Source: Scytalidium lignicola (taxonomy: Eukaryota; Ascomycota; Leotiomycetes). From it: 64,000 bases of DNA. The translations under genes were made by a program, and so were the position numbers. A model generated the notes under the pieces. It searched no databases, was not told where the DNA came from, and saw nothing but the letters and a program-made list of their open reading frames with translations. This document shows, one piece after another, positions 3 to 59,445 of the stretch. Numbering within the stretch: position 1 is the first letter of the stretch; the number at the start of each line of letters is the position of its first letter. Location: assembly GCA_002812745.2 (NCBI GenBank), contig NCSJ02000013.1, positions 62,001-126,000 on the forward strand. The letters run 5' to 3'.

Positions 3-308
3 CTCCACACGCTCTACTTCGTCAGCGTCCTCATCATGATTCGCTCACTGCTCCACTTGATTGAATATATTAAAGGGAATGCTGGTTACCTCCTCAGCAA
101 GGAGGCGTTTCTTTATATCTTCGACGCGGTCCCCATGTTTATCGTCGTCTCTTGGTTGCATTGGAAACACCCGGGGGGGATCGGTGTCCTGCTCCGGAGT
201 CAGGAGCATGTAGAAATAGGTTCAACCTCATATCGTCCAGGTCTCGGCTTATCTAGGTTGTCGAAGACTCGTGAACCAAGTGGGGAGCCCCTTGGTTTCT
301 CTCATTAG
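3..308 (+). CDS. RTA1-like membrane protein, C-terminal fragment
   Basis: The gene enters from outside the window, and the frame is open from base 3. The visible part has two hydrophobic segments joined by a charged loop reading RSLLHLIEYIKGNAGYL, then KEAFLYIFDAVPMF. This is the pattern of the last two helices of RTA1/RTM1 lipid-translocating exporter-like proteins of the fungal plasma membrane (IR.xFR.xEY..G..GYL...E...Y.FD). A short hydrophilic tail follows. The family is linked to resistance to toxic compounds and to sphingoid-base export; the substrate here is unknown. The N-terminal helices are missing, so integrity cannot be judged. Confidence 0.62.
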   Translation, partial: LHTLYFVSVLIMIRSLLHLIEYIKGNAGYLLSKEAFLYIFDAVPMFIVVSWLHWKHPGGIGVLLRSQEHVEIGSTSYRPGLGLSRLSKTREPSGEPLGFSH

Positions 309-19668: not shown

Positions 19669-20477
19669 ATGGATCAGGTAAGAAACCGGCTCCTTTCCTC
19701 TTGTATTTGGAAGCTCTATGAAAGAGTGTAAGGCTGACTTGGGAATAGATAGACCGTAATTCTCGAAAACCATTAGTTCAAGATTTTGAATCAGCCTATG
19801 ATCCACCTCAAGACCTCGAATTAGAATTGGAGGAGGAGGGCAACACTCCATCTTTTAAGTCTTATGAGAATCTTTTTGTTCGCGAGTCTAAATCACCTCG
19901 TTTAAGACGTCTTGTTCTCATAGTCATTACTATTACTCTAGCATCCTGGGGCCTAGTGGACCTATTACACCGTTGCTATGATGCCGTATCTTTTTCAACG
20001 AAGATGATATCGTCGTCCTCTTTATCCAGTAAAAAGCAACCTTGCTGGTGCGGAAACTCAGACAAAGAGGCAATCGCTATGGGGTGCCGGTACGATCATA
20101 TAGCGGTAGACTGGCTACCAGATCATTGCATTGATGACGAATTGTCAGCTGAGTTTGACCGCGCTGGCCCAGGCCCTAATGGATCGTGGGCGTATTTTAC
20201 TAAGGGACACGGCAATGAGACAATCAGCAACAACGATATTGACAGCTACGCAAGGGCTGGAACTGATTACTTTGCGACGCGTGAGTGGCATATTGCACAT
20301 TGTTTCTTTACATTTCGAAAACAGTTTCGAAGCCGGTCAACAGGCAAGGCTGTAGAGCCATGGAATGATAACGAGGAGCACATTACACATTGTGAAAAGT
20401 ATATATTAAAGACAATCAAACAGAAGCGGGAGTTGGGTGAGATCGAAACTCGTATCCTTGGAAAAGCTAGACATTAA
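19669..20477 (+). CDS. Type II membrane protein with two HxxHC motifs (UstYa-like relative?)
   Basis: A 9-base first exon (19669-19677, Met-Asp-Gln) spliced to 19749-20477 gives 245 residues; this start is inferred from the splice signals and an open frame. One membrane segment lies near residues 58-76 (RRLVLIVITITLASWGLVDLL). Then come CWCGNSDKEAIAMGCRYDH, WLPDHCIDDELSAEFDRAGP and the motifs WHIAHC (184-188) and EEHITHC (214-218). It belongs to a fungal family of unknown function that I recognise by the CWCG, HC...EFD and EWHIAHC pattern. UstYa/DUF3328 oxidases share a single N-terminal helix and two HxxHC motifs, so a distant relation is possible. It stands alone 4.7 kb from the RiPP-like precursor. 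Confidence 0.78.
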
Positions 20478-21294: not shown

Positions 21295-21885
21295 TTAGAA
21301 AAATATGTCTAGTGCGTTCACGAAGATATCAACCAAATCCCCAATCAAAGCAGTAGAAGAGGTAATGAACTCGCCATCGTCAATGAAGTCGATAATGATA
21401 GATGACGAGTCGGATATAACATCCCAGCCGATTTCTGTCAAATCTGGCTGGGCGAAAACCGACTCAACAGATTCAAGCACTCCACCTGCGCCAACTGCTA
21501 GATCTTGGGTCGGTGCAATTGGACCAACATTTCCGTTGAAGACCATCCAAGCAATATCCTCTTCAAACTGTCTCTTAGTATTCTTTTGAGATGTGAAATT
21601 TTCTCGAAGACCAGGCAAGTACTCCCATGATGCTCCGTTCGCACTGGTTAGGAACCAGTCTCTCTGATAGAAGTGATGGCCATCAGTGAGAGCGTGGACA
21701 GTTCCAGCCGTTGCTGTCTCGCCAAGAGCGTTGACACCAATTTCGACTCCGTTGAAAACGATCGGAGTTGAATAATTCCATCGTCGAAGCTCCTTTGTGG
21801 TGTTCACGCTATGGACATAGTGGAATTCAGATACAACTGGAGCGCCTAAAGCAACGCTAACAATTGCAGCAAGTGGAAGAAGCAT
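21295..21885 (-). CDS. Secreted protein of unknown function
   Basis: An intronless ORF of 196 residues starting MLLPLAAIVSVALGAPVVS, a clear signal peptide. The mature part has two likely N-glycosylation sites (NTT, NYS), no cysteine-rich pattern, one dibasic KR site (NTKR-QFEEDIAW) and an acidic, hydrophobic C-terminal third. No family was recognised. It lies 3.3 kb from the RiPP-like precursor on the same strand, and the KR followed by an acidic-aromatic segment vaguely recalls that precursor, but there is no repeat. A secreted effector-like or wall protein is possible. Confidence 0.6.
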   Translation of the reverse strand: MLLPLAAIVSVALGAPVVSEFHYVHSVNTTKELRRWNYSTPIVFNGVEIGVNALGETATAGTVHALTDGHHFYQRDWFLTSANGASWEYLPGLRENFTSQKNTKRQFEEDIAWMVFNGNVGPIAPTQDLAVGAGGVLESVESVFAQPDLTEIGWDVISDSSSIIIDFIDDGEFITSSTALIGDLVDIFVNALDIFF

Positions 21886-24800
21886 CTTGAGAGACTGAAA
21901 GAAGTTAACAAAAACTTCTAATATGGAAGAATATTTGCCGGATAATTACCTACAGATTTTAGAGCTAGCCTGAGGTGAATATTTGTCTGATGTCTGCGAC
22001 GGTGAATGCTTTGCCGATAATAGAGCAGAATACCATAACGAGCGGGATGCCCTCATTTTATACATGTCCTATGAGTACTCTATTGGAAATTTTGTAACAC
22101 TACAAATTTCCAAATGAAAAGTCAAATTACGAGCGAAATTCCCAATTGAATTAGTTGTGGAGAATAGAAGGTGGCACGAGTAAAAAGAAAATGATGAAAC
22201 AAGGGAAGTCGAATCGGCACAGAAACACGCGGGTCAGCAGGCAGCTCGAATCGAGGTACTTGTCATCCTAACGTGTTGGCCACATCATTGTTGCAACCAC
22301 TTTTAAACACCTCAACATATAATTTTAAATTACAATATCTTGACAACTATGAATCTGTTTAAGTAAACATTTATAGATTATAATGTGGGAGAACTGTCGG
22401 GTTGTACGGTTGGCTACGTACAGTAGCGATATGGTACGTGGTCGAGTTGTATGGCCAGTGCTGAGTGCAACCGACCAATCAGAAGGGAGGGTTCAATAGA
22501 ATAGGAGAGGAGGCCAGTATATTCTAGCTACTACGGCTACTAATAAAAGTTGTATAATATTATATGAGTAGGATGTTTTATCAATTCAATGAATTAGCTT
22601 TTGCTCTTACTATATCTAAATCTAATTAAAAATATATAAAGGATTCTCAAGCAATTATTACAAAATAAAAANTTTACATGATAAGTGGAATTTGAAGGGT
22701 TGAAAGAAAATCATGGTTGATATGAGAGAATGAGATTTCGATTGAAGATTATATAAACTACTTTATTAATAATCTGCTTGGAAGGATTTGGAAGGCTATA
22801 TAGAAAAAGGGAAATCCCTTAAGCTGGTAATCAATTAATTAAGCAATTAATCATTTCATGAAACGACGTTGTACAACTTCCTTATCTGGCTAGCAGAATG
22901 AGTAGTAAAACAATGGTGGACTGATCATTACTGTAACCCCCTTTCGTAACATTACTCCGATCAACGCTCTCTTATCAAATTTATCAACTTTTGACAATAA
23001 TACTGGCCGAAATCCTTTTTCAGACTTCCTGCTCATTGAACTATGGTTATGATTCTAGTGATCTAGTTACATAACCTTGCAAGCTGTCTCTTCTTACTTT
23101 GTCTTCAGCCTAAACTCTTCCACTTTCTTCGATCTGTCTAGACAGACCCTAACTTCAAACACTTGCTAATCTCACTAAAATAACTAAACTAGCAGTCCTA
23201 TTAGCATATCTCACCACTCTGTACCTTACACACAATAGACTGAAACTTCACACTACTGCTTGGCCCGTCAAAAGTTCTGACATCGAGATGTGCATGTAAT
23301 GTAAACGCTTTGGCAGGTTGTAGGGTGACCTTGTTTTAAGGAACATTGGACTTCAAGGAGATCACTGTCTCACCTTTAAAAACTAAGAAATGGACGATAG
23401 GTTTTGCGAATGCACCTAGCTGGGATATAATGCAAGAAAACACCTTCATCAGCAGTATTGTCAAGGGCCTGTGCCAGGATCTCAATGTCAAGATTTTCCA
23501 TAAGTTTAAGAACTTTCCGAAATTGAACTTTGCTCCTCATTCCACGTGTGATAATTATCTTATAGATCGCCACATCCTGGTAACATGCACCTACTCGACA
23601 TCTAGCTTCATTAATAGCACAATCCTTGTCTGTGAAGGTTGAGATAAAAGGGCTGTTTCTACGAGACTATCTGTTTGGGTGACATGATACAAGTTTGTGT
23701 AACTTGCTTCTTTCTCCAAACGTTTCTGGCCAAAAGCTGACCTCCACTCCCGATCTTGCATAAACACCGTTGTATCTCCAGTACGTTTTTGAGTTGGCCT
23801 CTTCAACACGGTAAAAAAAGCATGGTTTAAATGGCATGACAACAAATAGTCAATTACGAACTCAAAAGCCAGCACAATGAAGAAATAATAACGGAATAAA
23901 TAGATAAAACTAGGTTTGGAATAGGAAAAAGGAAGGGAAGGGAGTAGTTTCGACGAAACGTAATACTAAAATTATAGTTAACGTTATAACCAGAGACTTA
24001 CATAATCGCCATCGTAGCGCCAGCACCTTGAAAGGAAACTGCAGATCCTATTTCAAAAGGATTTAGTCAAACGAGTTATCTAGCTGGAAAAGAGATAGCT
24101 TCTTGCGCCGAGATTGGGCAAGAAAAGCCCATCCTGGCACGTTTTGCATACTTTGGAAGCTGCTGGAATTTCAACAGCGGTTTGAACGTCCGGAACTCAT
24201 GAATTCTTGAGAAGGCAGCAGCAAAAAGCTAGGAACTTGGATATCACACAGAACATTATTGGTCTACGTTTCTTTATATGAGAAGTTGGAGGTTGCATCC
24301 TGTGACTGTTATTACACGAAGACGCGTCTGAGATACTCACACCAACTCAACGTGAAAGCACATGAGGGTGCTAACTAATGGAGAAAGAGTCCTTGGTTAT
24401 GGATGTGACTAAATCCACACGGCAAAATCCATGTACGATTAAACCCTCACCACCTAAATTACAGTGAGTATAGTTGTTGATTGGAAGCACTATGACTATA
24501 AGGAGCACAGTGCTTGCACTCACCATTAACTGATTCTAGCGACCCTTAAACCAATTCTTACTACACATTTAACCAACCATAACGGTTACAGTTAGCTGCT
24601 GTGACCGTACTAAAATTTTCTATCCTCTCGACCACTGGAAATGGAGTCACTTATACACATATATGCAAATTATACTTTTGACGGATTTTCTTCGATTTTA
24701 ATGGCTTGGTTAATTATGCAACATGCCGCTTAGCATAAAACTCTAATTAACGAACTTTGATATGATTTATTAATCAGATTGCTCCGCTTAAGCTTATGCA

Positions 24801-25200: not shown

Positions 25201-26018
25201 CTAATTCCCCTTATTTTTCGTTGCAGCGGCGGCTTCCTTCGCTTTTATTTGAGCCTCAGTGTGATGAGCCTCTCTCTTGCCACCGGCATTCTTCTTTGCA
25301 GCTGCTTCCTTCGCCTTTACTTGAGCCTCAGTATGATGAGGTTCCCTCTTACCACTGGCCTTTTTCTTTGTAGCTGCTTCCTTCGCCTTTATTTGAGCCT
25401 CAGTGTGGTGAGCCTCGCGCTTGTCGACCCATGAACCGAACTCATCTTCCTCAGCATCCCAAGGACCAAACTCATCCGCTGGGGGAGTTTGAGGCCCACG
25501 CTTACCACCAGCCTTCTTAGCTGCTGCTGCTTCCTTCGCCTTTATTTGAGCCTCAGTGTGATGAGCCTCGCGCTTGCCACCGGCCTTCTTCTTTGTAGCT
25601 GCCTCCTTCGCCTTTATTTGAGCTTCAGTGTGGTGAGCCTCGCGCTTGTCGACCCACGACCCGAACTCATCTTCTTCGGCATCCCAAGGACCAAACTCAT
25701 CCGCTGGGGGGGTTTGAGGCTCACGCTTGCCACCAGCCTTCTTAGCTGCTGCCGCTTCCTTTGCCTTTATTTGAGCCTCGGTGTGATGGCGAGCCTCGAT
25801 GTCAGGAAGTATGACGTGAACTTCCTCAGTGGCTACAGCTGACCTAGAATCCTGAAAAAGATGAGTTAGAATGGTGTTAAAAAGCACGAATAATGGAGAC
25901 AGCTTACAATATGTCGCCGCTCAACGTCCTGAGTTCCTGCAATTGGGAAACCAGCGGAAAAAGGAACCGAAGTAAGGAGGCCAAGAAACAAGGCCTGAAC
26001 GATAGACTTTGAATGCAT
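25201..26018 (-). CDS. Repeat-containing secreted RiPP-type precursor (UstA-like, kexin-processed)
   Basis: Exon 1 is 25908-26018 and exon 2 is 25201-25851, giving 253 residues. The signal peptide is MHSKSIVQALFLGLLTSVPFSAG; a leader ending DIEAR follows. Then come eight units separated by Lys-Arg: six basic A units of 22-24 residues (HHTEAQIKAKEAA..., residues 59-80, 108-131, 132-155, 183-206, 207-230, 231-253) and two acidic B units of 27 residues (81-107 and 156-182) containing ADEFGPWDAEEDEFGSW. Each KR inside the array is followed by EA, EP or GP, which suit a Ste13-like dipeptidyl peptidase after Kex2 cleavage. This is the architecture of dikaritin precursors (ustiloxin, phomopsin, asperipin types). 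Two UstYa-type genes lie divergently next door. There is no Tyr in the repeats. A non-RiPP kexin-processed secreted protein is the alternative. Confidence 0.85.
25345..25788 (-). repeat. Higher-order tandem duplication inside the precursor
   Basis: The order A-B-A occurs twice in direct succession: residues 57-131 and 132-206, each 75 residues (225 bp). The two B units differ only in the first residue (Glu or Gly), and the A units correspond pairwise (AAAAKKAGG with AAAAKKAGG, AATKKKAGG with AATKKKASG). So the array grew by duplicating a 225-bp block rather than single units. Confidence 0.85.
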
Positions 26019-26705
26019 ATTTGAAATTTTGTAAAAAAGAGTGCTTATACCAGAGCGAACGAAGTAAAACAAGGACTGGCCGGCAGTCGACTAGAGAAAA
26101 TAGTTGAGAGAAGGAGAGAAGGAGATATGGAAAGATGGGATGGGATGAGATGAGATGAGATGAGATGAAAAGCGAAAGCATGTTCCTCTTATGTACTGCT
26201 TCGATACACTGACTACGAGCTACCATTAACGAGACAAAACGAATAGTAGTCGAACTCAATTACCTAGCAGTTTTGGCATTTCACTAGTTTCAAACTGCTA
26301 CATGTAATGGTGAGACAGCTCGATACGTAATAGAATGCATTTGTCTCTATTCAATTCTATTTCGTTCGCGTACGCTTGCCAGTAGAATACAGATCGATAT
26401 GTATATCGAGAAACCCTGCGAAACTTAGCTTGTAACGACCCTCCCTGGCGGTTCTACGAAACGCTTGGAGCTCTAGGGGAGACAGGGTTTAACTAATACT
26501 ATAACGGAAAGGATCAATAATTCTTGAGCGTTTACAGATTGATCAGTCTTTTCTAGCCATCCTGGCATGGCGAGCGCCAGGAGATCTCTTTCATTTTCTC
26601 TTTACCACCACGAACCGCTTTACTACACCCTCTTTAACTCTACATTTTTGAATTCTCTTTACTCAAGCATCTGTGGAAATAATATTCATTTCACCTAAAG
26701 TTATC
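26019..26705. promoter_or_regulatory. Shared divergent promoter of precursor and UstYa-1
   Basis: 687 bp separate two divergent start codons. It contains a 5-bp microsatellite (GATGA units, about 26136-26168) close to the precursor gene and an inverted repeat CCTGGC-N9-GCCAGG near 26562-26582. Co-regulation of the two genes from this region is likely by layout; the binding protein is unknown. Confidence 0.6.
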
Positions 26706-27720
26706 ATGGCTTTCGAATATCGATCTATGAAGTTGGCAGCTCCTGACGAGAAGCCAGGTCGCTCATCGACGGATTCTTCCACAACCGTTGACAACCTCAC
26801 TTACATATCACAAGACTCAGAATTGGGTTTATACAAAACATCTCTTAGTCAAAAAACATCCGTTTGGTTAAGATCAAAGTGGATATGGGTTATCCACGCT
26901 ACATTACTCCTTTCTTCTTGTGGAATACTTGTGTTCTCGCTCTGGGTTCGGTCATCAGCGCTGTATCATGCTCAGAAATTTTCAGCATGGTGTGAGTTTT
27001 TTCAGATAGAAGTATTTTTTATAAGAGATTTTTTACTGACATCGCACAGCACCGGCTGATGTGTCAGTGCGATATGAACATGTTCGATACAATATAACTA
27101 CCAAAGGAAATCCCTTCGTCGGCGCCAGCCCGGAAGTTGATAGAGCGTGGAGAGAAATTTCGTACGACAGTGAGTATTACACTTTCTACCTACCTAGAGT
27201 TGAATGCAGTGTATTGATATTGGACATGTACTAGTGGGTGACCAATGGATCTCAAAGGCAGATCTCTCAAAGCTTGATATGCCGGAAACCTCCTTGATGG
27301 TTGATCATCCCACTTCGGGGGAAGAAGGATATAGAGTTGGAATAGAAGTTTTCCATCATCTTCACTGCCTGAATCTCCTGCGAAGAGTCACCTATAAGGA
27401 ATACTACGAACCACTTGGTGGTGAATTTGAACACGGCCCCGAAGCTCTCCAACAACACACTGGTAAGCACGCATGGCCACTTTCTCGAAGGATGAGGATA
27501 GAACTGACCGGCGGGCCTAGATCACTGTATCGAAGTGCTTCGCCAAAACATTCAATGTAATGCTGATATAGGCTTGTTCACCTTCTACATGATCCCCGGC
27601 GACCCGCTCGCTTGGCCAGAGCTCAATTCGAAACACGTATGTCGCAACTTTAAAGCAGTGCGCGAGTGGGCGGTAGCACATTCGGTAGGAAACATGGAGA
27701 TCCTTGAAGATGACGTTTAA
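26706..27720 (+). CDS. UstYa family (DUF3328) oxidative cyclase-like protein 1
   Basis: Exons 26706-26991, 27050-27169, 27235-27462 and 27521-27720 give 277 residues. One membrane segment (WIWVIHATLLLSSCGILVFSL) places the rest in the ER/Golgi lumen. Then come the family signatures: WSPADVSVRYEHV, PEVDRAW, SYDMGDQW, and the two HxxHC motifs HHLHC (176-180, in EVFHHLHCLNLLRR) and HTDHC (210-214, in HTDHCIEVLRQNIQC), ending with FKAVREWA. UstYa proteins oxidise the side chains of RiPP core peptides, making macrocyclic ether or C-C bonds, probably as metal-dependent enzymes using the HxxHC residues. It is divergent from the repeat precursor. All motifs are present and no lesion was seen. Confidence 0.93.
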
Positions 27721-28871
27721 ATTAAGTGTATAATACCGGTACAGTATATTAAATCATAGTAGATAGCAAAAAAAAAGCACCATTATTAAAGATTCTTAAT
27801 CCATACATTTTTTTTTTTTGGCGAAGTTGTCGTATTAGGTCAAATAAATTCCCGTCTACGTTTAGTATAGCTCCGTGATTGATACGTAAACAAATGATGT
27901 TGAGTACTGTGGTCTCGTAGTCAATATCTTTAAATAGCTACCAATAAATGCTCTTAGAATTTTAGCCCAGGTTATCGAAGCGACTCGGAGAGGATGGCGT
28001 AGAAGTTAATACTTTCCGCAAGGCGCGCGCCGTAACGAGCTCCGACCCGGCGCTGTCAATAGGTCCAAGTCAAGTCAAGTCTAAACCTTCCCCGAAGTCA
28101 AGTCACAGGTTTGACAGATCCAGTTTCACTAAAAGATCTTAGATCAAGCTCAGTTAGGGGCGTTGGCTTGTCTCGGCGGGTAGAATTGCGGAGAGCCCTA
28201 GTGTGTTACTCGCTAACGGGCGCCAATTAATGCCTCATTCTTAGCCAAGATCGATAGGGGCTAGTCTAGGTCCTTATTCTTTCACACAGGGGAGACGAAA
28301 CAGGATAGAGAGTCTACAAATAAGGGGTGGAGAATAACCAGTCCCCCACCCGCTTACTAAGCGGTCCGTAGTTACCCTCCTGTTTCAAGTCGCTTGAGGT
28401 TGGAAATGTCTGTACTCCGTCGTGAAAGTATCCCCCAGGCCCCGCATCGTTTCAGTAATTGAGGCTGGAATTGAATGGTAGCTAAAGATATTGGCTACTA
28501 GACTACCAAACATTCTTCGTTTATCATGAAACCACACTAAACTTTGACACAGGCGATCTACGGTGCACTCGGGGACAGAACTTGGCATTACAAAGGCAAA
28601 ACCTGCCTTTGCCAATGAGGCATTAAAGGTAGCGCTGATAGAAAGGAGTGCCTCACATTTGATTCCATTCCAGACTCATGTTATGGTATCTGAAACTACT
28701 GTTTTATCGATGCCCCGAAGCACATCTTCGAGTAAAGCCATCTACAGAAGCTTCTTTCATTCTCCTGATTGACAAAATATTTCCATTTTTTTATTCAATT
28801 CTGAAGATTGTTCACTTGGAACAGCATATTGATCTGCTTTTGTCCTTTATTGCGAGAGATACAGTATAAAG
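27721..28871. other. Intergenic between the two UstYa genes
   Basis: 1.15 kb. It starts AT-rich (runs of A and T at 27768-27820), then has a GC-richer middle (about 27970-28350) with no recognisable gene or RNA. Short ORFs on both strands have no features. The right end holds the promoter of UstYa-2. Confidence 0.4.
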
Positions 28872-29949
28872 ATGACACCAAGGGACAAATACTTGCACCT
28901 CAGAGAAGATATCCTTGAGCATAAGTTCGAGGAGGAAGATCTCGAAGAACTTGGCTCCGACACAACAAAAGCTGCTTCTGATGAGGCCATCGACAAATCC
29001 CACCTTCTTCCGCTCAGACATTTCTCGGATCCATCGAACACATTGTTGGCTCAGAATCGAGCAATAAGAAGAGTAGAGAAATCCAGGACAATCTGGGCGT
29101 GGCTCAGATGGGGGACAGTCATTGGACTGCAGATAATTGTGATAGTACTTCTGTTGGTGAGGCCGAGAGAGAATGCGATATCAAAAGATTCACCAATTAC
29201 ATTAAGTGCTGGTGATAAGTCGGTCGAGACCGGTGGGGATATTAATGGATTGTATAATACATGTAAGTACCGTGTCACCTGGTTAATTTCATCACTTTTG
29301 TTTCATATCTGATAGAATGCAGTATCCCATTCATATACGTTTCTCAAACCCGAGCAGGAGAAATATGTCCCTAATATGACTACAAACGATAATCGAATGG
29401 AAGTACGGAGGAATTGGGATTTATTGATGCCACGTAAGAGACTCCAAAATTGATATTTTCTGAGCGCATTTATTCACAGCCTTCACAGTGGGCAGCGGAA
29501 GCGTATCTATTCCAAATTATCGCGATTATCCTCTCCTTGGACAACCAATTATCGATGATCCCATTCGTTCCGGACCATTGTTCGAAGCATCATGGACGCA
29601 TTCACTACACTGTGTAAGTTAGCCTACCTGTTTCCCTACAAATTATCCCACCACTGTTCAGCATGCTAACCCTATTTCATTCATACAGCTGTACTATGCC
29701 GTTGACAGCTACCACCAGCTCGTACTCAACGGCCCAAGTGAGAACGACAACCCTTACCATGCCGCTCACTGTTTTGAATACCTGCGTAACAGTATCCTAT
29801 GTAACCTTGACATGACACTTGAAGGATCAATGTCTACGTCAGATGATAAGGATAAAGGCCAACCACATATCTGTAGAAATAGAGAGGAGGCAATTGCTTG
29901 GATTGAAGCCAGGAGGGTGGATGATGCACAGGATATTGTTGGCCCATAG
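28872..29949 (+). CDS. UstYa family (DUF3328) oxidative cyclase-like protein 2
   Basis: Exons 28872-29262, 29323-29433, 29480-29613 and 29689-29949 give 298 residues. An acidic cytosolic region of about 75 residues precedes one membrane helix (WGTVIGLQIIVIVLLLV). The lumenal part contains FLKPEQEKYVPNM, NRMEVRRNWDLLMP, GSGSVSIPNYRDYPLLG, SGPLFEASWTHSLHC (HSLHC at 208-212) and YHAAHC (HAAHC at 236-240). It belongs to the DUF3328 subgroup with a long mid-region, like the second UstY protein (Yb) of dikaritin clusters, and differs from UstYa-1. Two different UstY proteins next to one precursor is the usual dikaritin arrangement. It is intact by motif and frame. Confidence 0.92.
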
Positions 29950-53451: not shown

Positions 53452-56400
53452 TTACTCCTGAAGAACTTGAAAAGATTTGATTATGGCTTTCACCAACTGA
53501 GTTCGACTCTGAAGGGAGCGAATATCGAAAGCATCTGAATGCGCATGCCCCAAATACCGGAGACTGGTTGTTCCAAACGGAACAATACAAAAACTGGCAT
53601 GATTCTGAAATTAGCAGCTTATGGATTCAAGGAATTCCAGGCAGCGGCAAATCCGTAGTGGCTGCTAATTTGATTCGAACTCTGAAAAAAGAAAATGCCC
53701 CTGTTTTATTCTTCTTTTCTCGACGTATCATAAAGTCAAATAGCAAGCCTCGGCGTCTTGTTCAAAACTGCTTGTATCAACTTTTAGATTACAGTATTCC
53801 CTTGCAAGCGAGTCTGAGGGAGGTCAATGAGCAACATCCTGTCATAGAGAACATTCCATTCCACAAACTATGGGAAATATTGCTTTACGAAATCTCGATA
53901 TTTCCTAGGGTTTATTTTCTTTTCGATGCCCTGGATGAACTTGATGTGGAAGAGGACAATTTTCTTCAGCACTTACTGGAACTCGGACAAAAGAGCACAA
54001 ACTTGATCAAGCTCCTAATGACTAGTCGCCCACTATCTCAACCGTGTAAAAGGCCCATTCCTGGCCAATATTCGGCTTGGAGGAAGAATGGTTGAGAAGG
54101 ATATTGTTACATATATCACTTATCGCATGGCTAATCAACCACAGACAACTTTGGCAACAGGGGATCAGTCGACAACTGAGGATATGCTTTCTCAAAAGTC
54201 CTAAGGCTTATTTCTCTACGCTCGACTTATGCTAGATGAGATTCTTCAACAATCGACTCTAGTGCATGCACATCTTGAACAGCTTCCAAGCTCTTTAGAA
54301 GACATGTATGTCGAGATTCTGCATGAGCACGCCCTCCGTTCTGGAGTCAACATGCACTTTCAATCCTTACTGCTTTCGTAGATCACGCATGCATGTCGGC
54401 CACTTCGAGTCACCGAACTTGCAGCTTTGGTTAATTCTCATAGCAATCGTGGTGGACTAAGCGACTTACAAGATGCAAAGCTCATGGTTCGCACATCGTG
54501 CGGTCCGCTACTTGAGATTTTGGACAATGAAACTGTGCAGGTTATACATCACTCCTTTACAGAATTTCTCTTTGACCAAAGCCGGAATAATACTTCCAAA
54601 GAGACTGATCGTTACGAGAAGTGCTTTCCAGGCTTTACCCCCGGTTTAATTCATCGATCTTTAACTCTTTCTTGTATTGATTATCTTCAATCTGGCTGCT
54701 TTGACTCATGGTCACGTCAGAAGTTGGAATATCACAAATTTGAGGAGCAGAGGCAACTGATGATTCAATTTCACTTTCTTCGCTACGCTTCGGAAAATCT
54801 ACTCTATCACGCAGCAAAATGTGAAACTTTTGATACAAACCTTTTGTCGAAATTCGACAGGTTCTTTCAATACGGGAGCCACAATTTTGAAAGCTGGAAA
54901 GATTTTTTATTTTTAAAAGACGAGATCACACACAATGAATTTTATCCACTTCACATTGCTGCTAAATCTGGGTTGACATACTATACCATGCATCTGGTGG
55001 GAATGGAAGCAACTCCTGATCTTGTCGATTCTTGTGGGCGGACAGCAATGGCCTACGCTGCCATGCATGGGCATGCTGAAACCCTTACTGCTCTTCTGAA
55101 TCAAAAGGCCTCGTTTGCAATTAATGACTCTGATGGCCTAGCACCAATACACCATGCATCTAAAGGCAATCATGCCAAAGCGCTGCGATGTTTGCTTGAT
55201 GCTGGTGCAGATCCGATATCCCCAAAATCTAAGGAGGACATGAACTTCTATTCGTGGATGCCTTCTACGTTAGATAAAACACCTTTGCAATATGCTTGTG
55301 AACTGGGCAATGGTGATGCTGTCACTGAGTTACTACAGCACTTGAGGTCTGATTCAAAAAGTTCTGTGCTTCCACATTGGGCATCTGCGACAGGCCAAGC
55401 AAATGTTCTCACACTCATGCTGAAGCATCCTGAAATTTTGGCAAATATTAACAAAAAGGATGCCTGCGGGAACACAGCTCTATATCTAGCTGCATGTGCC
55501 GCAGACTCTGCGACTATACGTGTTCTGCTGTACCATGGCGCAGATATTCATTCAACTTCATACGACTTGGATAATGTTAGAGTTAAACTAGCGGATATAC
55601 AAGCCATGAACTCCAAGCGAGGAATTAATCCACTCGAAGGTTGGGCAAACCCTAGGCGTCGAAGAGCTGGCAACAGGTGGCAGAGCAGTGTTGAGGAATG
55701 GGAGAAAACTGCTACATTATTAATCGAAGCTGGATGCGATGTTGAGCCGAGGGACGAGACAGGCCGAACGGTATTGTTCGCTTGGACAAAGCAACTTGGT
55801 TACGGTGATGACCATTCAGATCGAACAGAACGATTTGTGTCCCTCCTCCTTAAACACGGTGCTAATCCCTGTACAACTGATAATGCAGGTAATACTGTGC
55901 TTCACCATAATCAAAAGCGGCGAATGAACCCTAGAATAATCGAACTCTTTGCGAAGGCAGGAACTAATATAAATCATGCTCGAGAAGGCGATCTTATGAC
56001 ACCTCTCATCGCCGCTGCAATGGGCCAGTGTGTCAATGTTAAGGCCTACATCGACAATGGTGCAGATCCTAACATGCAAGACTCAGATGGAAACACGGCG
56101 CTACATCACATATGCCGTTCGTGGTTATTTGACTTATCGAACATCCGAGAATGGTTAGCATTTGCAGATCCTACAATCAAGAACAAAGAAGGCAATACCT
56201 GCCTGTATAATCTGCGCTTCGGAAGCCGTCATCATGGGGGAGTAGAGGCTATTCCGTTATTCGTTGAGAAAGGTTTAGACCTCGAGTCCAGAAATTATCT
56301 TGGAAGGACAGCTCTACTTGCCGCTTGCCAGAACGGAGAACCTCATTTCATTATTGGATTGGAGCTGATTCAAATTCTAAGGATTTCCAGAACAAGTCAT

Positions 56401-59400
56401 GTGAGCAAATCTTGTATGACTTATTTTTGATATACTAATTGTTAGACAGGTCTTCATTTAATTGCTCGTGTTGCAATGTCTAACGATGACTACATACCTA
56501 ATGATATTCTAAAAACTTCAGATGTCATAAAGACCCTCATCGAAGTAGGATCTAATATTAACGCCATCGATTTTGACGGTAACACTCCGTTCCACGATGC
56601 AGTTGAATCGAACGGCGACTTTGCCTCCAAAAAAATTAGGTTAGAATCGTTTCTAAAATTCAGGGCAGTGGCAAACATATCCAACCATCATGGACAAACA
56701 GCCTTGCACAAGGCTGCCAGTTTGAGGAATACGGAACCTGATAGCAACTCGCATAGAGGAGTTCCTGATCTGATAAAGTTTTTATTGCAACCAAGTTTAG
56801 AATTTAACCTGCATGCACGGGATAACGAAGGCATTATGGCAATCCATTACGCTGCGTCAGCATCGGAGGTAAACACATGGCAATTCGTCCAGGCTGGAGC
56901 CGATATCCAAGCTCGAACTAATGACGGTCGTAATCCTCTACATTTTGCTGCTGAAGCGGCGCAGAGTAATATTGTTGGACTCCTCTGCAAACTGTACAAT
57001 GAGAAATCCTTTGGGGTGGATCAAAAGGATCAAACTGGTCGTACTGCTTTGCATTACGCTGTAGGCTTAGGAAATTCTGAATCTGTCTATTATCTACTGC
57101 AGTCTGGTGCAAATCCTAACATTAGAGATAATCAAGGTCGAACCCAATTACATACAGCTGCAGAACATCGAGTGGATATCGCCAAGCTTAGGAAGGAGCG
57201 CAAATACAAAAGAATTAGGCTCTGGAGACACAAGTTTTTCGATATGGAAAGATTATTTCCATTCATGGATAAGAGAAAAGCAAATGAGTTCTATAAAGTT
57301 CAGTGGGAGTTGCAACTACCCATTGCCCAGGAAGAAGAAGCATGTATGATCCAGGATGTTGTTCGTTTACTTTTGTCAGCCGGTGCAGACCCTGATATAG
57401 GTGATAAGTCCGGGCAGACTGCTTGTGATATAGCTATACTCCTAGACAACGAAGAAATGGCTAATATGCTACTCTCTATGAGGATGACTAATGGCAAGCA
57501 AAACTCTTTGACGGAACAGTGGTATTCAATCAGAAGTTCGAGCGCTGAGAATAGTGTTCGAAGCATCACAATTGATGACGGTAATGATTATACCCTTCTT
57601 CAAACTGCCATTTCCCTGAGAAACGAAGCTATGCTGGATTCTCTCTTAAAGATTGGGGTAGATCCCAGAGCCCTTGGTCCACATGGACTAACACCTGTTC
57701 ACCTCATTGCATACTGGGGTCTTACATCAATGATGGGAATTGTAGCATCTTACCTCGATGACTTAAATTGCTTCTCACCCCCGTTACTTCACGTTGCGGC
57801 AAGCAGAGAGCAGTCAAACATTCAGATGATTCACTTATTGATCAAGCTAGGCGTCAATATCAGCGCTCCGTATCAGGAAATCGATGATTCAAAGGACAGA
57901 TCCACAGGAGTTCAAATTCCATCATACGCAGCTGCCCATATCCTCGCAACGGGTGAGCAATGGTGGAACATTTTAGCACTCGAGACTCTATGTAAAGCAG
58001 GAGTAGATCTTAAAATGACATACGGAAATGGAAATACGGTTCTGCAATGTGCTCTCAACGGAAAGAAGAGCGGATCTTGGGGGCCATGTTTCTGGCAAGA
58101 TGAAACATTGGAAGTGTTGCTAAAGCAGGGCATAAACATAAACACCTTGTCTCCAGATAATGGGTTGACTCCTCTTCTCGCAGCTTTGCAATCCAAGCGG
58201 GGTCCCAAATTGATACGGCGGCTTCTGGATCATGGTGCAGATATTACTCTTGGCAAAGTACCTGCCATATCCATGGCTATCGAGAGTAGTGACCTTGAAG
58301 CTACGGTAGCAGTCCTAGATGCTGGTGCAGATGCCAACGCTCTATACGTTCCAGATAAACCCGAGTGGAATAGAGGCCCCAAAATAGAAACCCCCCTTTT
58401 GTCTGCTTCCTTAAGTTGTGACGATACAATACGCCACACGAAACAAAGATCTGCTAGAGAGGAAATTATGGCCACCCTCCTCCAGCGGGGATCGAACCCT
58501 CTTATGGAGCTTCCGGGTAGGGACTCTATTGTCTTACATGAAATTTCATACTTCCATGGTATCATTGCACCAATTCTGAGATCTGGGGCCAATCTTGAAA
58601 TCAGAAACTTTCAAGGGCGTACTCCTTTGCTTTTAGCATGTTCTCGTACCGGTGCCTCAGAAGAGTCCACAACATGTGAATTGATTCTAGCCGGCGCAGA
58701 TATTCATAAAATAGACAATGATGGCTCAACAGCTCTTCATCTTGCGATCCAGTCCGGCATGATTGAAACCACCGCTTTACTACTACAAAGAGGCGCTTCT
58801 ACTTCCGCCAACGACAATGCAGGACTCTCCCCGCTATATTACGCCTTAAACTATTCTAATTCTGTGGAAAAGCTGAAGTTAACTAAAATTTTACTATCTG
58901 CTGGCGCAAATCCTCTCATTAGAGGTCCAAATGCCGAAACAGCACTACATCTTCTCTCCCCTTCGTTAATACAACTCAGCCCTGGCAATGGATCTGAAGC
59001 GAGAGCACTCAAATACCGTAGCCGTGAGAAGACAGATTATCTCGGGGAATACAAGAACCTGTACCAATGTTTCGTTGACAATGGTTGTGGACGTAATAGT
59101 CGTGACAATCTAGGAAATACCCCATTGTTTCCATATGTCAAAGAAACTAAGCCCCGAGATGACTATTGTATAACTGACCCACCGGCGGAGGAAGATATTC
59201 GACAAATGTTTGAGGACCATGATATATTTGTAATAAATAATGATGGGGACTCATTGCTCCATGCAGTTGCTGGGAGAGGGGAGGGAAATGATACAGAGGA
59301 TGATGGGGTGTGGCTGTTCGAGGAGTTGATGAGGCAAGGGTTGGATCCAAAGAAAGAAAACATTATGGGGCTCAGTGCACTAGATGTTGCAGCTGCCTGT

Positions 59401-59445
59401 GGGAAAGAAGCAATTTTGAAGCTTTTTATGAAAGAGGAACAGTGA
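53452..59445 (+). pseudogene. NACHT-ankyrin NLR-type gene with several disabling lesions
   Basis: A STAND protein of almost 2,000 residues can be followed: SEYRKHLNAHAPNTGDWLFQTEQYKNWH, Walker A GIPGSGKS, Walker B VYFLFDALDELD, LMTSRPLS, a winged-helix-like part (RPLRVTELAALV, VIHHSFTEFLFD), then ankyrin repeats (TALHYAV.LG, LLL.AGADP) to the end. The intron is 56401-56449. Lesions: TGA at 53478-53480 (usually Arg in EKI-R-LWLSP), a frame change near 54035-54045, TAA 54202-54204 (before GLFLYARLM), TAG 54379-54381 (Trp in LLLS-W-ITHA) and a frame change near 56355-56361. By contrast the 2.97-kb distal ankyrin ORF (56476-59445) is fully open. NLRs act in fungal nonself recognition; this allele looks dead. 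Confidence 0.85.

Follow-up and report, generated by a model that had tools for sequence, protein, structure and literature searches.

Ribosomally synthesized and post-translationally modified peptides (RiPPs) linked to UstYa (DUF3328) proteins are, in the cases described (ustiloxin, phomopsin, asperipin and epichloecyclin), closed at tyrosine. A catalogue of Kex2-processed repeat proteins (KEPs) includes three DUF3328-linked types (G-3, G-8 and P-3) which carry HH or W, not Y (Umemura 2020; PMC7329392). Type G-3 (#6) has a di-histidine motif and comprises 64 KEPs from 59 strains and 20 genera, including Scytalidium, Talaromyces, Fonsecaea, Capronia, Trichoderma, Verruconis and Botrytis, with 57 of the 64 lying near DUF3328 genes (PMC7329392). 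The window analysed here, a 64,000 bp stretch from contig NCSJ02000013.1 (labelled C44) of Scytalidium lignicola (Leotiomycetes incertae sedis), was found to possess a repeat precursor gene with two UstYa genes, U1 and U2, beside it. It is fairly probable that they form a three-gene KEP-type RiPP cassette in which the two UstYa oxidases act on secreted peptides at positions other than tyrosine.

The exon models of the precursor, U1 and U2 (Table 1) were built from the DNA in this analysis, and their ends coincide with those given in an earlier note on the same DNA. That note had described a precursor divergent from one DUF3328 gene with a second in tandem, both proteins having two HxxHC motifs and one membrane helix, and the gene models, motif scan and hydropathy window used here agree on each of these points. 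The precursor model agrees in every residue with a protein already deposited for S. lignicola, B7463_g1282 (100% identity over 253 aa in a protein search). No deposited S. lignicola copy of U1 or U2 was found among the homologues listed (the best 120 of 218 matches for U1, and 72 for U2). The precursor and U1 may be co-regulated from the 687-bp region which they share.

Eight KR-delimited units had been proposed for the precursor; eight units and seven KR sites were indeed found, but the units are of two kinds (six HH and two acidic) and the first is preceded by a single Arg (EAR), not by KR. A KEP is recognized by at least three near-identical units with Kex2 sites between them, and this arrangement is present here, with a tandem-repeat score of 837 and a repeat count of 5, whereas 1000 residue shuffles gave no count above 1. 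The N-terminus contains a hydrophobic stretch (maximum of 1.68 in a 19-residue window, by hydropathy only and with no signal-peptide predictor). None of the units contains Tyr. The precursor matched no Pfam or NCBIfam family, and the label PF28547 attached to homologue P0030 in the homologue listing was not reproduced by the profile library used here. The computed unmodified masses after full trimming are 2016.086 for HHTEAQIKAKEAAAAKKAGG, 2103.155 for HHTEAQIKAKEAATKKKAGG and 2045.077 for HHTEAQVKAKEAAAKKNAGG, while the acidic units after full trimming would give QTPPADEFGPWDAEEDEFGSWVD at 2623.066 (2606.040 as pyroglutamate).

Comparison of the six HH units gave proportions of synonymous (pS) and nonsynonymous (pN) differences of 0.38 and 0.014 over codons 1–10, and 0.63 and 0.18 over codons 11–15. 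The two acidic units differ in five codons, all of them synonymous. The pS and pN values between copies indicate that the repeat units are constrained at the level of protein sequence. Lys is found at position 8 in all six S. lignicola HH units and in no other homologue, which suggests homogenization of the repeats. The HHTEAQ codon pattern occurs six times on C44, always inside the precursor gene, and a single HH precursor was found in the S. lignicola genome (five candidates scored, plus the codon-pattern search). A seventh match to the codon pattern was located on C472, within a short frame that overlaps a lipase/NACHT-type-looking gene, and was taken as chance.

A protein search identified 46 precursor homologues, own gene included (scoring covered the 7989 candidates with the most shared words, and a length of 0.55–1.75 of the precursor was required). 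When the decapeptide was searched for with up to four mismatches, 222 units were found, and every one of the 46 homologues has one or more; a narrower set with positions 1–6 fixed has 218 units, the four additional variants belonging to P0025 (three) and P0035 (one). Over the 222 units, agreement with HHTEAQIAAK is 95.5–100% at each of positions 1–10, and past the decapeptide it is 65% at position 11, 39–89% at positions 12–17 and 21% at positions 18–20. Arg, either directly or with X-Ala/X-Pro dipeptides in between, precedes 220 of the 222 units. The two exceptions are one variant unit of P0025 and one unit following the signal-peptide region of P0029. In the narrower set 57 units lie directly after Arg and 160 have intervening dipeptides, and the same rule is satisfied at 477 of 7647 other positions of these proteins. 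This regularity points to His-1 as the predicted mature N-terminus after Kex2 cleavage and STE13-type trimming. STE13 signatures have been described previously, and section 4 of that paper does not name the HH motif (Le Marquer 2019; PMC6339444).

No Tyr follows the first HH unit in 43 of the 46 homologues. The three in which it does (P0025, P0035 and P0043) look degraded or mis-predicted to us, and in P0025 Tyr replaces His-1 in three units. The acidic unit is absent from nine homologues, and these nine are also devoid of Trp, Tyr and Cys past the first unit; a single Phe is present in four of them, and the seven that are named come from Ciborinia, Botrytis/Botryotinia (four), Acephala and Stipitochalara. 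All homologues have the HH decapeptide but some lack the acidic unit, so that the HH peptide appears more likely to be the core substrate; in some lineages the acidic Trp/Phe peptide may be an additional substrate or a further product.

Both U1 (1.2e-52, 179.4 bits) and U2 (4.8e-14, 53.2 bits) match PF11807 above the cut-off of 25. The motifs are HHLHC (176) and HTDHC (210) in U1, and HSLHC (208) and HAAHC (236) in U2, with the single membrane helix at about 59–81 and about 74–100, respectively (19-residue hydropathy window). Extra conserved cysteines are present at C246 and C270 of the U2 alignment and at C255 of the U1 alignment. Structure models of the Xylogone orthologues of U1 and U2 place both HxxHC motifs on two long helices; a sequence search for relatives of solved structure gave none that was convincing (best E 0.068). 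Dehydroamino-acid formation is reportedly among the reactions of the DUF3328 family, going by the title of a cited paper. A study of CctR, a DUF3328 protein, describes a membrane-associated homodimer with oxygen-dependent activity, in which HxxHC motifs of paired helices make up a binuclear copper site, and gives hydroxylation, halogenation and macrocyclization as reactions of the family (PMC12435403). Given the copper site of CctR and the paired-helix HxxHC motifs in the models, it is probable that both U1 and U2 are copper oxidases oriented towards the lumen of the secretory pathway.

In several classes, relatives of the precursor, of U1 and of U2 lie on the same contig or have adjacent locus tags, linkage having been judged in this way and not from direct synteny. 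Eight of the 21 named precursor homologues (S. lignicola excluded) were joined to U1 or U2 by contig, using lists of 90% clusters that hold 120 of the 218 U1 rows and are silent on the linkage of the remaining homologues. In trees of both U1 (30 of the 120 listed homologues) and U2 (29 of 72), the S. lignicola and Xylogone sequences are placed with those of Trichoderma (starred). This grouping belongs to a clade that also contains Eurotiomycetes and Verruconis, apart from a Helotiales-rich clade which includes Dothideomycetes. Class labels were looked up for some of the tree rows. Forcing the Leotiomycetes rows together was rejected by the approximately unbiased (AU) test, with p-AU values of 5.85e-4 for U1 (9 rows vs. 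15) and 2.49e-48 for U2 (14 vs. 16), the clade tested having been picked after the first tree was seen. The U1 test used 23 rows, after removal of the S. lignicola paralogue and of six rows that were distant or long.

Because both trees join Scytalidium and Xylogone to Trichoderma, the simplest reading is that the precursor, U1 and U2 moved jointly by horizontal transfer, as these groupings suggest; an ancient duplication with losses could be an explanation as well. S. lignicola has a second U1 paralogue (B7463_g2726, P0098) on contig C266 (L035), whose position in the tree is within the Helotiales-rich clade (86/95 support, not starred), a placement compatible with transfer and with duplication and loss alike. 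No repeat precursor was found beside this paralogue in 9.9 kb.

If the locus is a cassette acting on secreted peptides, the precursor would enter the secretory pathway and be cut by Kex2 after KR/Arg, a Kex1-type carboxypeptidase would strip the basic residues, and a STE13-type dipeptidyl peptidase would trim the X-Ala/X-Pro pairs. The peptides released would be His-His-led (HHTEAQIKAK...) and acidic (with DEFGPW..DEFGSW). U1 and U2, membrane-anchored, facing the lumen and expected to be binuclear copper oxidases, would then modify them at non-Tyr positions. As to biological role, our guess is a conserved secreted signal or a metal-binding peptide. A more specific proposal, in which two distinct UstYa oxidases inherited with the precursor modify HHTEAQIAAK at His/aliphatic positions and not at Tyr, to give a conserved signal or copper-binding peptide and not a toxin peculiar to one strain, with the cassette moving between classes, is offered tentatively and is doubtful in its entirety.

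Several observations weigh against the cassette as favoured here. The homologues were selected by similarity to the S. lignicola precursor, so that their conservation is partly by selection, and the comparisons between repeat units are not independent, as copies may be homogenized (concerted evolution). Thirteen of the 21 named homologues could not be joined to U1 or U2. The nine precursors without an acidic unit could not be matched to a U1 or U2 of their own species, and their link rests on the 57 of 64 reported by Umemura. Only a single HxxHC motif is present in 14 of 65 U1 homologues of 250 aa or more, compared with 1 of 49 for U2. The Xylogone orthologue models are of moderate confidence (mean pLDDT of 67.6 for U2 and 69.8 for U1), and no convincing match to them was found in the PDB by fold (best E 0.41). 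In the KEP catalogue, the HH content is also similar in KEPs with and without DUF3328 (5.7 and 3.9%, respectively) (PMC7329392).

The HH peptide might instead be an unmodified, pheromone-like linear signal, with the UstYa genes acting only on the acidic Trp/Phe peptide. Kex2 and STE13-type sites are arranged as in alpha-type pheromones (for the STE13 signature, see the relevant section of PMC6339444), and the strong conservation of the HH decapeptide is more signal-like than toxin-like. No Sclerotiniaceae name occurs among the 120 listed of 218 U1 homologues, U2 is present in Botrytis, and the five Sclerotiniaceae precursors in the set have no acidic unit, a pattern to be expected if U1 acted on the acidic peptide. 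However, the absence from the U1 list carries little weight, as it concerns the best 120 of 218 matches and many rows are unnamed. U1 also occurs in several Leotiomycetes (Hymenoscyphus, Venustampulla and Cadophora), although the named Helotiales precursors are without the acidic unit. According to the catalogue, alpha-factor and pheromone KEPs lack DUF3328 genes nearby in all but three cases, in contrast to type G-3, in which 57 of 64 have them (PMC7329392), and we regard a purely linear HH signal as rather unlikely.

It seems improbable that the UstYa pair uses the HH decapeptide as a docking tag, with the acidic peptide as the real core. The HH unit is the more constant of the two, and Trp/Phe are plausible cross-link sites, victorin having a Phe-Leu link for which the responsible enzyme is not stated in the passage cited (PMC9233826). 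However, nine of the 46 homologues keep HH units without an acidic unit, and Kex2 sites separate the HH units from the acidic ones. A Tyr-ether dikaritin product is unlikely because the units contain no Tyr. Very little credence is given to a classical macrocycle of the ustiloxin, phomopsin and asperipin kind with the other enzymes encoded elsewhere, even though the precursor architecture and UstYa genes are the same, the genome has 11 exon-level tyrosinase matches away from the locus, and Tyr stands in for His-1 in the three P0025 units. Tyr occurs past the first HH unit in only 3 of the 46 homologues, and its absence contradicts Tyr ethers.

The surroundings of the locus are in line with the earlier statement that no tyrosinase or P450 is near, with none of the 11 tyrosinase matches on the contig and a distance of about 48 kb to the closest P450 match (C44:140007; 92 of 271 candidates scored). 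No peptidase or methyltransferase family was matched in the part scanned, i.e., 13 of 31 open reading frames (ORFs) of at least 90 aa between 18.8 and 36.1 kb, and three spliced models. PF11807 has 54 exon-level matches in the genome. An intronless, membrane-type frame at window 19749–20477 (Table 1) has 13 further genome matches (on contigs C340, C643, C221, C635, C365, C157, C166, C628, and C421), of which nine lie within 10 kb of a PF11807 match, a zone that makes up 1.3% of the genome (binomial P 7e-15, with matches on the same contig counted as independent). Motifs were inspected at three of these loci, and at C635:29971 the matched part has just one HxxHC. These intronless HxxHC..HxxHC frames look like a divergent UstYa-like family clustering with UstYa genes. 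Between this frame and the precursor there is a small secreted-looking protein with no Pfam family (window 21295–21945, minus strand), and NACHT-like and ankyrin-repeat frames at window 53481–59445 (plus strand; open stretches of 204, 682, and 999 aa) are likely a fungal NLR-type gene, judging from the translation.

Among the subset of loci scanned elsewhere in the genome, two other repeat precursors near UstYa genes contain Tyr. One is a repeat frame on C188 (L036 3283–3486, minus strand), PPYHPNIDVVDKR, and the genome's best UstYa match lies about 1.2 kb from it. The other is a seven-copy repeat precursor on C521 (L038 6905–7384, minus strand), QTPDNGNYVYFDKEK, on a contig with seven exon-level UstYa matches. 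The Tyr-rich C521 precursor is a better dikaritin candidate than the U1/U2 locus.

Table 1. Features of the UstYa-linked repeat precursor locus (window positions unless marked as protein positions).
Feature	Position	Strand	Details
Possible extra member, divergent UstYa-like, unproven	19749..20477	+	Intronless 242-aa frame; HIAHC and HITHC; PF11807 E 0.0051, below cut-off
Repeat precursor (KEP) gene	25201..26018	-	2 exons, 26018-25908 and 25851-25201; 253 aa; signal peptide-like N-terminus, pro-region, 8 units
Eight repeat units	25204..25788	-	From the unit table of the precursor
Six HHTEAQ[IV]KAK units	protein 59-80, 108-131, 132-155, 183-206, 207-230, 231-253		From the unit table
Two acidic units (DEFGPW..DEFGSW)	protein 81-107, 156-182		Ending ...QTPPADEFGPWDAEEDEFGSWVDKR; from the unit table
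Divergent intergenic region precursor/U1, possible shared promoter	26019..26705		687 bp, from gene models
U1, UstYa/DUF3328	26706..27720	+	4 exons, 26706-26991/27050-27169/27235-27462/27521-27720; 277 aa
U2, UstYa/DUF3328	28872..29949	+	4 exons, 28872-29262/29323-29433/29480-29613/29689-29949; 298 aa

The locus resembles those of ustiloxin, phomopsin and asperipin in its signal peptide-like N-terminus, multi-core Kex2 precursor and nearby UstYa-family oxidases. However, their cores carry Tyr and Tyr ether links, whereas the units here have no Tyr and the contig no tyrosinase match. The earlier note had proposed a dikaritin-like RiPP pathway with an undescribed core. A RiPP pathway is supported by a precursor with two UstYa genes and by the linkage of relatives of all three in other fungi. 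The dikaritin label fails in the Tyr-ether sense, with neither Tyr in the core nor a tyrosinase in the cluster, and applies only under a looser definition in which DUF3328 is the class-defining enzyme (PMC12048977). The core cannot be called undescribed as a type, as it is very likely already in the KEP catalogue (PMC7329392).

The precursors of victorin and epichloecyclin are multi-core and probably Kex2-processed like that of S. lignicola (PMC9233826), and DUF3328 is present in epichloecyclin clusters (PMC12048977). Epichloecyclins have a Tyr-Ile link, and both products are reported from particular pathogens or endophytes, whereas the HH precursor family spans several classes. DUF3328 also belongs to the victorin pathway, and the core sequences of victorin and epichloecyclin differ from the S. 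lignicola units. Alpha-type pheromone precursors share Kex2 and STE13-type sites between repeats with the HH precursor (220 of 222 units), but the peptide is another one and DUF3328 neighbours are almost always lacking, whereas the HH precursor adjoins U1 and U2. CctR, the cyclochlorotine hydroxylase, is like U1 and U2 in its single membrane helix, HxxHC motifs on paired helices and further conserved cysteines; it differs in that its substrate is a nonribosomal cyclic peptide. Trichoderma RiPP cluster 55 was set aside as having a different precursor (PMC7099791).

The closest likeness is to KEP type G-3, with which the locus shares a Kex2 repeat protein, the di-histidine motif, DUF3328 neighbours (an HH motif with a DUF3328 gene within 15 genes) and genera. 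From the genus list and the HH motif, the precursor family is very likely this catalogued, uncharacterized type. The HH and acidic unit strings gave no relevant match in the text of open-access papers, figures and most subscription papers lying outside the search. What is left as a surprise is that a His-led peptide without Tyr has stayed nearly invariant and been retained together with two UstYa lineages across classes. The cassette offers a clean test of UstYa chemistry without Tyr and bears on the proposal of Umemura that some KEP products are hormones, not toxins, and the predicted mature N-terminus and masses make it directly testable by mass spectrometry. Beyond the available text on type G-3 (PMC7329392), the unit sequence, the two UstYa lineages and the suggested transfer history come from the present analysis.

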